Position numbers and translations under genes: made by a program. The notes beneath the pieces were generated by a model, which saw nothing but the letters and a program-made list of their open reading frames with translations, had not been told where the DNA came from and did not search any database. From Agromyces flavus (GTDB lineage Bacteria; Actinomycetota; Actinomycetes; Actinomycetales; Microbacteriaceae), in assembly GCF_900104685.1 (NCBI RefSeq), contig NZ_LT629755.1, forward strand, positions 1,612,001 through 1,676,000: 64,000 nucleotides of DNA, written 5' to 3'. Positions 12,867 through 16,239 of this stretch are shown here, one piece after another (position 1 is the first letter of the stretch; each line of letters begins with the position of its first letter).

Positions 12867-13283
12867 TCACTCCTTCATGAGCCGCGAGCGGATGAGGAAG
12901 CGCACCCCCTCGGGCGCCTCGAGCGAGAACCCGCTCCCGCGTCCGGGGACGACGTCGACCGTGAGGTGGGTGTGCCGCCAGTAGCCGAACTGCTCGGCCG
13001 ACATCCAGAACGGCACGATGCGACCCGAGCCGAGGTCGAGCTCGCCGAGCAGCACGTCGGCCGCACTGGTCGCGAAGTCGCCGGCCGGGTAGCACATCGG
13101 GGCGCTGCCGTCGCAGCATCCGCCGGACTGGTGGAACATGAGCGGACCGTGCTTCGCCCACAGCGTCGCGAGCAGGACGCTCGCCGCGGGCGTGAGCTCC
13201 ACCCGCGGCGAGACGTCGCCCTCGATCGTGATGGACGCGACCACGCGGCCCGTCAGCTGGTCGATCGACATGGACTGCACCAT
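12867..13283 (-). CDS. DUF779 protein, partner of aldehyde dehydrogenase
   Basis: The 138-residue protein is a DUF779 member: FHQSGGCCDGSAPMCYP with its Cys cluster, then WRHTHLTVDVVPGRGSGFSLE. The function is unknown, but DUF779 genes very often accompany acetaldehyde/chloroacetaldehyde dehydrogenases, as here, where the gene starts 21 bp after the dehydrogenase stop. The cysteines and histidines suggest metal binding (inference). Two starts 12 bp apart are possible (13283, 13271) and neither has a strong ribosome binding site. Confidence 0.88.
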   Translation of the reverse strand: MVQSMSIDQLTGRVVASITIEGDVSPRVELTPAASVLLATLWAKHGPLMFHQSGGCCDGSAPMCYPAGDFATSAADVLLGELDLGSGRIVPFWMSAEQFGYWRHTHLTVDVVPGRGSGFSLEAPEGVRFLIRSRLMKE

Positions 13284-13304: not shown

Positions 13305-14828
13305 TCAGAAGAACCCGAGCGGGTTCTCGCTGTAGCTGACGAGGAGGTTCTTCGTCTGCTGGTAGTGGGCGAGCGCCTGCTTGTTGTTCTCGCGACCGAT
13401 GCCCGAGGACTTGTAGCCGCCGAACGCCGCGCCCGCGGGGTACGCATGGTAGTTGTTGACCCACACGCGACCAGCCTGGATGTCGCGGCCCGCGCGATAC
13501 GCCTCGTTGCCGTTGCGGCTCCAGACGCCGGCGCCGAGCCCGTAGAGCGTGTCGTTCGCGATCGAGATCGCGTCGTCGTAGTCGCGGAAGCTCGTGACCG
13601 CGACGACGGGGCCGAAGATCTCCTCTTGGAACAGCCGCATGCGGTTCTCGCCTTCGAAGATCGTCGGCGCGACGTAGTAGCCGTCGCTGAGATCGCCGCC
13701 GAGGTCGACGCGCTCGCCGCCGAGCAGCAGCTTCGCGCCCTCCTGCTTGCCGATGTCGATGTAGCTCAGGATCTTCTCGAGCTGGTCGTTGGAGGCCTGA
13801 GCGCCGACCTGCGTCTCGGTGTCGAGCGGGTTGCCCTGGCGCGCCTGCTTGGTGCGCTCGATCGCGTCGTCGAGGAACGTGTCGTAGATCGACTTCTGGA
13901 TGAGCGATCGGCTCGGGCAGGTGCAGACCTCGCCCTGGTTGAACGCGAAGAGGCTGAAGCCCTCGAGCGCCTTGTCGTAGAACGAGTCGCGTCGGTCGGC
14001 GACCGACTCGAACACGATGTTGGGGCTCTTGCCGCCGAGCTCGACGGTCGACGGGATGATGTTGTTCGATGCGTACTGCAGGATGAGTCGGCCCGTCGTG
14101 GTCTCACCGGTGAAGGCGATCTTGCGGATGCGGTTCGAGGAGGCGAGCGGCTTGCCCGCCTCGACGCCGAAGCCGTTCACGACGTTCAGGACCCCCGCCG
14201 GCAGCAGGTCGGCGATGAGCTCGACGAGCACGAGGATCGACACGGGAGTCTGCTCGGCGGGCTTGAGCACGACCGCGTTGCCGGCGGCGAGCGCCGGCGC
14301 GAGCTTCCACACGGCCATGAGCAGCGGGAAGTTCCACGGGATGATCTGGCCGACCACGCCGAGCGGCTCGTCGAAGTGGTAGGCGACCGTGTCCTCGTCG
14401 AGCTGGGTGAAGCTGCCCTCCTGGGCACGGATGAGGCTCGCGAAGTAGCGGAAGTGGTCGCTCGCGAGCGGCAGGTCGGCGTTGAGCGGCTCGCGGATCG
14501 ACTTGCCGTTGTCCCACGTCTCGGCGACCGCGAGCAGCTCGCGGTTCTGGTCGATGCGGTCGGCGATGGCGTTCAGGATGCCGGCCCGGTGCGCGGCGCT
14601 CGTCCGGCCCCAGGCGGGCGCCGCGCGGTGGGCCGCGTCGAGCGCCGCCTCGATGTCGGCGGCCGTGCCGCGCGCGACCTCGGTGAACGGCTTGCCGTTC
14701 ACCGGTGAGATGTCGTCGAAGTAGGCGCCGTCGAGCGGCTTCACCCACTCGCCCCCGATGAAGTGCTCGTAGCGGGGCTTGAACTGGATCAGTGCGCCGG
14801 TGGTGCCGGGCGCGGCGTACACGGTCAT
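13305..14828 (-). CDS. NAD-dependent (acet)aldehyde dehydrogenase
   Basis: The 507-residue enzyme has all ALDH catalytic features: N166 in IIPWNFPLL, the E264 base in VELGGKSPN, catalytic C302 in NQGEVC and FGPVV in the C-terminal domain. Length, N-terminal [12 protein letters not shown] and C-terminal NPLGFF match the ExaC/AldA group that oxidises acetaldehyde or chloroacetaldehyde to the acid with NAD. GAGGAG lies 6 nt before the ATG. Upstream are a TAGCGT -10 box and four phased GCAAC repeats, then the gene for a GAF-containing regulator on the same strand, so expression is probably substrate-induced. DUF779 follows in the same transcript. Confidence 0.92.
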
Positions 14829-14880: not shown

Positions 14881-14886
14881 ACGCTA
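14881..14886 (-). promoter_or_regulatory. Candidate -10 box of the aldehyde dehydrogenase operon
   Basis: TAGCGT reads on the minus strand 11 nt after the last of four GCAAC repeats and about 50 bp before the ATG. No -35 consensus is needed if the repeats recruit an activator that contacts RNA polymerase, as SARP regulators do. Position and spacing are seen; activity is inferred. Confidence 0.5.
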
Positions 14887-14891
14887 GGCGC

Positions 14892-14935
14892 GCAGGCGTT
14901 GCGCCTCGGTTGCCCGAGGGTTGCAGGGAGGTTGC
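14892..14935 (-). promoter_or_regulatory. Operator: four GCAAC direct repeats at exact 11-bp spacing
   Basis: Reading the minus strand, GCAAC begins at 14935, 14924, 14913 and 14902, an exact 11-bp period, so all copies lie on one face of the helix. The array starts 2 bp after the regulator's stop codon and ends just before a -10 box. The third repeat is also the loop of the perfect palindrome CCTCGG-GCAA-CCGAGG. Direct repeats with 11-bp period next to -10 are the known recognition pattern of SARP-type winged-helix activators, and the adjacent regulator has a SARP-like C-terminal half. Confidence 0.7.
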
Positions 14936-14937
14936 AG

Positions 14938-16239
14938 TCAGCGCAGTGCGGACTCGATGCGCTCCAGGTGCGCCACGACCGACGCGCGGCGGGGCGAGCG
15001 CGGCGGAAGCAGCTCGAGGCACGTCCGCCACAGCTCGACGTCGTACCGATGCTCGTCGCGCTCGGCCCATGCGAGGAGCAGCTCGGGCGATGCGTCGGCC
15101 AGGAGGGACTCGCGGACGCGGCTCGCGAGCTCGTCGCGCAGTTCGACGATGCCGGGCGCGGTCGATGCGGGCAGCACGGGGCCGGGGTACTGCTCGACCG
15201 CCTTGCGCAGGGAGCCCTGGCCGACCAGCCTCGCAACCCGAGCGGCGTCGAGATCGAGCTCGCGGGCGAGGCGATACGGCCGCGATTCCAGCGGTGGTTC
15301 GCCCGCCGACTCGAGCACGCGACGCAGGCGCGTGATCTCGGCTCGGAGCGTCACCGGCGACGCGTCGCGTTCGTACAGCAACGCGGCGAGGCGCTCGGCA
15401 CTGATGCCGCGCGGGTTCCACGCGAGCAGCGTCAGGATCTCGGCGTGCCGTGGGCTCAGCTCGTGCGACCCGAGGCGGGAGCGCTGCTCGCCGAGCACGG
15501 TGAGTGGCGTGCGCGTCGGCCTGGCCCCCGGGACGGCGGCCATGCGCGACCGCCGCAGCGTCGCGTGCACGGTGGATTCGAGGTTCGCGATCCGCAGCTC
15601 GGCCTCGACCGCGGCGACCGTCGCCTGCACGAGCGACATGGTGTGGGGAGCGACGGCGTGGTCGGTGCCGGTGATGTCGATGACGCCGAGCAGCGCCCCG
15701 TTCGCCGGATCGTGCACCGGCGCCGCCGTGCAGCTCCACGGGTGCACGATGCGGTTGTAGTGCTCGGCGCCGCGGATCTGCACCGCGCGGTCGAGTTGCA
15801 GCGCCGTGCCCGGCGCGCTCGTGCCGATCCGCCGCTCGGACCAGTCGGCGCCGGCGACGAACAGCATGTCCTCGGCCCGGCGCCGGAGGTGGGCGTCGCC
15901 CTCGACCCAGAGCAGGCGGCCGTCGGCGTCGCCGACCGCGACGACCAGCCCCGCGTCATCGGCCCCGTCGACGAGCAGTCGACGGATCACCGGCATGACC
16001 GACGCGAGGGCGTGCGACGAACGGTACTGCCGGAACGCATCCTCGTCGAGCTCGATCGCGGGCAACGCCCGGTCGGGATCGATGGCGCCGCGGATGGCGC
16101 GCTCCCACGATTCCCGGACGACGGGACGCAGCGTCAGCGGGACCACTCCGGTCGCGATCGCGTCCTGCTGGGCGCGCAGCAGTCGGTCGCGCAGGTCGCC
16201 GGCTGCGCCTGCGTGCTCCGACCCGGTCGGCATGCTCAC
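14938..16239 (-). CDS. GAF-domain transcriptional regulator with winged helix and BTAD-like C-terminus
   Basis: About 433 residues. The N-terminal half resembles the sensory region of AcoR-type activators: VRESWERAIRGAID, then a GAF domain (GLVVAVGDADGRLLWVEG, RIGTSAPGTALQLDRAVQI, TAAPVHDPANGALLGVIDITG; each cited in part). There is no AAA+ sigma-54 module. Instead the C-terminal half has an OmpR/SARP-like winged helix (SPRHAEILTLLAW, VTLRAEITRLRRVLE) and a helical region like bacterial transcriptional activation domains (KAVEQYPGPVLPASTAPG). GGAG five bases upstream supports GTG at 16239; ATG at 16233 is the alternative. It most likely senses an aldehyde or alcohol and activates the downstream dehydrogenase. 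Confidence 0.82.
   Translation of the reverse strand: MSMPTGSEHAGAAGDLRDRLLRAQQDAIATGVVPLTLRPVVRESWERAIRGAIDPDRALPAIELDEDAFRQYRSSHALASVMPVIRRLLVDGADDAGLVVAVGDADGRLLWVEGDAHLRRRAEDMLFVAGADWSERRIGTSAPGTALQLDRAVQIRGAEHYNRIVHPWSCTAAPVHDPANGALLGVIDITGTDHAVAPHTMSLVQATVAAVEAELRIANLESTVHATLRRSRMAAVPGARPTRTPLTVLGEQRSRLGSHELSPRHAEILTLLAWNPRGISAERLAALLYERDASPVTLRAEITRLRRVLESAGEPPLESRPYRLARELDLDAARVARLVGQGSLRKAVEQYPGPVLPASTAPGIVELRDELASRVRESLLADASPELLLAWAERDEHRYDVELWRTCLELLPPRSPRRASVVAHLERIESALR

Follow-up and report, generated by a model that had tools for sequence, protein, structure and literature searches.

Two kinds of bacterial regulators come closest to the system described here. SARPs are known as activators of antibiotic gene clusters, and sensors of the DhaR/AcoR type as sigma-54 activators, according to the sections of the literature consulted (PMC10936776, PMC4393881, PMC8784404, PMC10972967, PMC12692060). 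In the consulted sections of the AfsR paper, SARP targets are direct repeats spaced 11 or 22 bp, and 8 bp separate the 3' repeat from the -10 element. The afs box, which overlaps the -35 element, comprises two 11-bp repeats, the upstream one extending from -40 to -30, and the SARP dimer carries sigma region 4 on top of it. An excerpted review adds that some SARP sites are built of 10-bp units, as for PimR, and vary in copy number. Here we describe a locus of Agromyces flavus, within a stretch of 64,000 nucleotides (nt) of contig NZ_LT629755.1 (positions 1,612,001 to 1,676,000; hereafter the window), in which a gene for a GAF-SARP protein (the regulator) precedes an array of GCAAC repeats, the acetaldehyde dehydrogenase gene exaC and a DUF779 gene. 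The regulator and the GCAAC box most probably form a one-component activator system for exaC-DUF779. No published account of a GAF-SARP regulator of exaC or of a GCAAC box was found in a search of mainly open-access literature, which leaves its absence from print unproven.

The GCAAC array and its promoter

All elements of the locus are read from the minus strand, in the order regulator, GCAAC array, exaC and DUF779 gene. The regulator gene (14938..16239, 433 codons) starts with a GTG at 16239, has an in-frame ATG two codons further on at 16233, and its stop ends at 14938. The exaC product (13305..14828) passes the NCBIfam equivalog cut-off for the ExaC acetaldehyde dehydrogenase (NF050026 AcaldDHExaC, 924.2 bits against 900) and also matches PF00171. 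Behind it, on the same strand, the DUF779 gene (12867..13283) matches PF05610 with 156.6 bits (cut-off 25). Between the regulator's stop and the exaC ATG at 14828, GCAAC occurs four times at exact 11-bp intervals, starting at 14935, 14924, 14913 and 14902. These copies occupy 14931..14935, the most distant from the promoter, 14920..14924, 14909..14913 and 14898..14902, which adjoins the -10 element. The last one ends at 14898 and is followed, after 11 nt, by the -10-like hexamer TAGCGT (14881..14886). Both the phased copies and the position of the hexamer had been noted in the initial annotation of this DNA and were confirmed. It had also described the array as filling the gap between regulator and dehydrogenase; the location is right, but the filling is not, since 52 nt separate the -10 hexamer from the exaC ATG.

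Three consecutive copies (GCAAC-N6, three times) gave two overlapping matches in the window and none in 100 dinucleotide-preserving shuffles. The same two matches were the only ones in the whole genome of 3,692,308 bases, where the reversed pattern gave 0. Across 60 genomes of the genus Agromyces, the three-copy pattern was found in 22 (reversed-pattern control, 1/60) and a regulator match in 29. All 22 array genomes fall within those 29, and the array was found in 0 of the 31 genomes without a regulator match. ExaC was detected at E <= 1e-200 in 28/60 genomes, all of them among the 29; in the remaining regulator genome (G029) the exaC match is split into two pieces, which may explain its absence from the count. 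At least one GCAAC pair precedes exaC in 29/29 Agromyces regulator genomes. Confinement of the array to the window's genome was ruled out by its presence across these genus genomes and loci. In Agromyces bracchium (L003, 5266-5385), extra GCAAC copies were observed at 17-bp steps, continuing into the 11-bp array, and these 17-bp tandem units look as though the 3' end of the regulator gene had been duplicated.

The -10 hexamer is numbered -12 to -7 by convention. On this numbering, the last GCAAC copy would cover -28 to -24 and the one before it -39 to -35, both within 11-bp frames of the afs type. As in the SARP targets outlined above, 11-bp direct repeats overlap the -35 region and the 3' repeat lies about 8 bp before the -10 element (here GCAAC plus 3 nt, then 8 nt). 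Part of the box family uses 10-bp steps, and this variation in period and copy number likewise has its counterpart among the SARP sites of the excerpted review. The statement in the initial annotation that SARPs bind direct repeats of such a period next to the -10 element matches the geometry given in the consulted part of the AfsR paper.

A DhaR-like sensor joined to a SARP-type unit

A Pfam scan of the regulator at E <= 1 returned only GAF (residues 105-214; 15598-15927) and Trans_reg_C (PF00486, residues 260-313), the latter at 19.3 bits and thus below its cut-off of 26.2. The same scan gave no match to BTAD (PF03704), to the AAA+ sigma-54 interaction module, whose absence had been proposed from the sequence, or to a Fis-type helix-turn-helix. 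The sensor half covers approximately residues 37-238 (15526..16131). It had been called an AcoR-type GAF sensor; GAF is indeed present, but the nearest solved structure is the N-terminal half of DhaR, not AcoR, and the top NCBIfam match of the regulator is the sensor part of DhaR. In the predicted structure, the DNA-binding half (residues 239-433; 14941..15525) aligns from residue 239 or 242 to 433 with the winged-helix and BTAD unit of AfsR and EmbR. An OmpR-type winged helix followed by a BTAD-like helical tail, as the initial annotation had suggested, is therefore recovered at the fold level, though the Pfam BTAD model is silent.

Compared with SARPs (AfsR, EmbR; ActII-ORF4/OtcR type), the regulator shares the predicted winged-helix and BTAD fold over residues 239-433. 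However, its SARP unit is C-terminal, behind the GAF sensor, whereas described SARPs carry theirs N-terminally in the sections consulted; furthermore, the core of its box is GCAAC, and its candidate targets are catabolic genes rather than antibiotic clusters. With the DhaR/AcoR-type sigma-54 enhancer-binding proteins it shares the GAF-type sensor half, but not the AAA+ module or the Fis-type helix-turn-helix. The sigma-54 family PF04552 had no match in the window's own genome (G000) and none over the cut-off in 197 class genomes, in agreement with the lack of sigma-54 assumed earlier for actinobacteria, and was found over the cut-off in 4 of 14 control genomes. The regulator is SARP-like at the promoter and DhaR/AcoR-like at the sensor, and a standard member of neither group: it departs from SARPs in its domain order and its lack of a BTAD sequence match, and from the DhaR/AcoR type in its lack of an AAA+ module and of sigma-54 in the host. 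A reactive-cysteine sensor (W168-S-C170) was also considered and dropped. The cysteine is invariant in a 66-sequence alignment, and the DhaR alignment is off by one at this position, so that the invariant residue is uninformative on the effector.

In the mechanism that we favor, the product of 14938-16239 would be a cytoplasmic one-component activator, with an N-terminal DhaR/AcoR-type GAF sensor and a C-terminal SARP-type unit, that takes up a metabolite of ethanol/acetaldehyde use. The ligand-loaded protein would then occupy the GCAAC direct repeats, its protomers arranged head to tail along a single face of the double helix and over the -35 region, and recruit the housekeeping RNA polymerase to TAGCGT by an AfsR-style "sigma adaptation", so that exaC-DUF779 is switched on. 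With the same box before adhP and acetyl-CoA synthetase genes in relatives, the family appears to be a sigma-54-free regulator of the route from ethanol through acetaldehyde and acetate to acetyl-CoA. Binding of the repeats by the regulator is suggested by the sequence comparisons, and activation rather than repression, with contacts to the polymerase, is what we infer from them. The target genes point to an aldehyde- or alcohol-type effector, which would be ethanol, acetaldehyde or a product. In our view, the absence of sigma-54 together with the SARP-like promoter geometry argues for activation with the housekeeping polymerase.

Conservation of the box across the family and class

At E <= 1e-30, 96 of the 249 genomes of the family gave a regulator match, and at E <= 1e-20 so did 187 of the 394 genomes sampled from the class. 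The rewired, sigma-54-free regulator proposed in the initial annotation is supported, but as a member of a family and not as a one-off. Family loci were taken from 90 of the 96 matched genomes (30 listed and 60 fetched, with the remaining six left out), and class loci represent part of the matches (26 new and 40 fetched). Together with genus, named-genome and second-copy loci, the pool comprised 206 loci, of which 176 had a usable exaC start; the 30 dropped loci consisted of 27 without exaC in the stretch covered and three with an exaC below 60% identity (L291, L293, L297). Merging identical upstream sequences left 164 distinct exaC upstream regions of regulator genomes.

A GCAAC pair lies within 160 nt of exaC in 151 of these 164 regions and within 300 nt in 154. 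Shuffled 160-nt regions carried a pair in a mean of 0.165 and a maximum of 1 of 164, and the opposite strand in 1. TAnnnT follows the last copy at exactly 11 nt in 144/151 regions and at none of the other distances between 5 and 24 nt, and TAGCGT is the commonest hexamer there (44/151). The number of GCAAC copies per 160 nt (n = 164) was two in 115 regions, four in 21, three in 15, one in seven and none in six, and all 21 four-copy cases belong to the window's genus. Between the last two copies the period is 11 bp in 98/154 and 10 bp in 56/154. After clustering at 70% identity into 97 groups, the pair was present in 89/97 representatives and GCAAC-N11-TAnnnT in 94/97. Orthologous loci keep the repeats, in line with the reading of the initial annotation, but usually as two copies with a period of 10 or 11; four 11-bp copies are a lineage feature. 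The reversed pattern, CAACG-N5/6-CAACG (43 regions), was rejected as a control because GCAACG contains CAACG, and the shuffles and an exaC set from regulator-less genomes were used instead.

These data bear on the idea that the array is a structural or neutral tandem repeat, spread by slippage and devoid of a regulatory role, for which the additional 17-bp tandem copies reaching the array in L003 could speak. In the matrix of the 97 representatives, the letters between the repeats are only weakly conserved. Class-wide, GCAAC itself and its distance from the -10 element are kept, whereas the spacer letters vary and the period shifts from 11 to 10, and no array is found in the absence of the regulator. 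A chance or neutral origin is strongly disfavored and very improbable, and was rejected on the strength of the shuffles, the genome-wide uniqueness and the class-wide conservation with variable spacers.

The same matrix shows no conserved hexamer at the -35 place, where GCAAC sits and other positions are variable; the promoter should therefore need an activator. This is relevant to the possibility that the regulator is a repressor, bound over the spacer between -35 and -10 and blocking polymerase until an aldehyde releases it. Any protein on the GCAAC repeats would overlap the -35 region, and repressors are common among sensors of the GAF and IclR types. With GCAAC in place of a conserved -35 hexamer, and an 11-nt placement that equals that of SARP activators in the sources as consulted, we consider repression quite unlikely.

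The box is tied to exaC rather than to the regulator gene. Among 40 class loci, 33 contained exaC and 32 of these had the pair upstream, also when exaC is divergent (L184, L198) or lies beyond intervening genes (L187); in the one exception (L196), the distal GCAAC is replaced by GCAGC. An array bound to the regulator's 3' end was ruled out by this behavior. In ten family loci (L048, L049, L051, L054, L056, L067, L082, L083, L109, L112), either the entire pair or just the distal copies fall within the regulator's 3' coding end, so that the operator overlaps codons. In genome G630, exaC with its pair (L298) lies at 2.46 Mb and the single listed full regulator match at 4.50 Mb; a second regulator match was counted without a mapped position.

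As a control, 27 exaC genes from class genomes without a regulator match were examined, and 0/27 had a pair or GCAAC-N11-TAnnnT within 300 nt, regulator absence being defined by a search that scored only the four best candidate stretches per genome. A separate factor, co-inherited with exaC and the regulator, might bind the GCAAC repeats while the GAF-SARP protein controls something else, as the location of the regulator away from exaC in some genomes and the boxes without a clear target would allow. We regard this as unlikely: the box occurs in 29/29 Agromyces regulator genomes against 0/27 regulator-less exaC genes, its geometry equals the published SARP geometry (as given in the excerpts consulted) and the regulator has a SARP-like half, and the regulator stands divergent to adhP genes that carry the box, in L347, or a single copy, in L350.

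Other candidate targets

A whole-box scan of the class found matches in 61/197 genomes. Of 30 loci among the matches listed, 15 carry the box upstream of exaC and one (L305) carries it upstream of an AdhP-like gene; the remaining loci were mostly located by a paralogous regulator or without a clear target. Nine more box sites were examined, of which L329 and L334 precede adhP, L330 and L332 precede acetate/propionate-CoA ligases, and five have no clear target. A box with no clear target was observed in L304, L331, L335, L336 and L337, and in L333 a frame of the long-chain acyl-CoA ligase type starts ahead of the box site.

The adhP gene was found at E <= 1e-110 in 21 of 150 family genomes, and not in the window's own genome at this threshold. 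Seven of the 21 have the pair 73-97 nt upstream, and one has TAnnnT with a single copy. Another five follow immediately on exaC; in two of them a GCAAC pair spans the start codon, and these two pairs were set aside. The other eight lack the box: four are in regulator-less genomes, one is in a weak-match genome and three are in regulator genomes. In L338 (G630), the gene that begins about 20 nt past the regulator encodes an acetyl-CoA synthetase N-terminal domain and an AMP-binding domain, which supports a role in C2 metabolism.

Several observations weigh against the proposed activator system. The box could belong to a different factor found in the same genomes as the regulator, and the search defining the 27-gene control was limited as stated. 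The reversed pattern matched in 8/197 class genomes, and some class-scan boxes stand ahead of no clear target. The exact pair within 160 nt is missing in 13/164 regions, three of which have a pair inside 300 nt; L290, L292 and L294 show no trace of the box before exaC, and L290 and L292 adjoin a paralog of 35-38% identity. Of the three loci dropped for a low exaC identity, only L297 carries the pair, which L291 and L293 lack. The adhP genes of L353, L356 and L358 lack the box in genomes that have the regulator. Finally, a predicted template modelling score of 0.54 indicates that the mutual placement of the regulator's two halves is poorly predicted.

The recurrence of the regulator-exaC pairing in many actinobacteria suggests a widespread, so far uncharacterised ethanol/acetaldehyde switch. 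Such a switch would explain ethanol/acetaldehyde control in bacteria without sigma-54, and GCAAC-N5/6-GCAAC-N11-TAnnnT would provide a predictive promoter signature for annotation and regulon reconstruction. A small, ligand-driven SARP would also be a candidate model for how the SARP activator class works.

In family f27 of the class, a paralogous GAF-SARP gene was observed near peptide-transporter genes in L176, L179, L181, L185, L192, L193, L313, L314 and L318-L322, with a neighbor that is presumably MshB. In these loci, a GCAAC pair with N11-TAnnnT, oriented one way or the other, lies just past the 3' end of the regulator gene, with no gene start behind it; this box is perhaps the promoter of an antisense or small RNA.

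Distant relatives and paralogs

Full-length homologs of the regulator with about 30% identity were identified in Acinetobacter, divergent from exaC (L361, L365-L367). CCAAC-N6-CCAAC-N11-TAnnnT precedes exaC in 4/4 of these loci, three of which are close relatives on plasmids, so that independent cases are few. In contrast to the Agromyces regulator, this protein belongs to a gammaproteobacterium, is associated with a CCAAC core and has no Pfam GAF match at E <= 1e-3. The other six of the ten distant loci (L360, L362, L363, L364, L368, L369) have no.CAAC pair with N11-TAnnnT.

A broader proposal, for which we see the chances as evenly balanced, is that the GAF-SARP family constitutes a principal sigma-54-free control of ethanol/acetaldehyde use in Actinomycetes (exaC, adhP, acs), with a promoter plan (two.CAAC 11 bp apart, N11, TAnnnT) kept across phyla as far as Acinetobacter despite the change of a core base. 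If true, the SARP promoter mechanism would reach beyond antibiotic regulation, and the core sequence would be less conserved than the spacing from repeat to promoter.

Acinetobacter also has a second paralog, which shares about 50% identity with the one beside exaC and lies near a thiamine-pyrophosphate-dependent dehydrogenase (L368, L369); in L368 a lipoyl synthase gene is also nearby, as in acetoin clusters. Acinetobacter AcoN is described as a negative regulator of acetoin genes in the consulted part of PMC6595428, and we neither equate it with this paralog nor separate the two.

Paralogs also occur within the alkane-monooxygenase clusters on plasmids of M. chubuense and M. dioxanotrophicus. 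MYCCH_RS28740, from the smo alkane-monooxygenase cluster of Mycolicibacterium chubuense NBB4, is homologous to the regulator over residues 16-417 with 33% identity. A review, as excerpted, labels it AcoR-like with a CadC1-type helix-turn-helix ("AcoR; CadC1 HTH domain") and states that experimental evidence for it is lacking. Unlike the regulator, it adjoins alkane monooxygenase genes and sigC, and no GCAAC pair is present in the 15-kb stretch. The GAF-SARP paralogs of L360 and L364 are located by AMP-binding and SigC genes in alkane-monooxygenase clusters, and L364 additionally contains a second, longer helix-turn-helix gene with a sensor half ahead of an aldehyde dehydrogenase.
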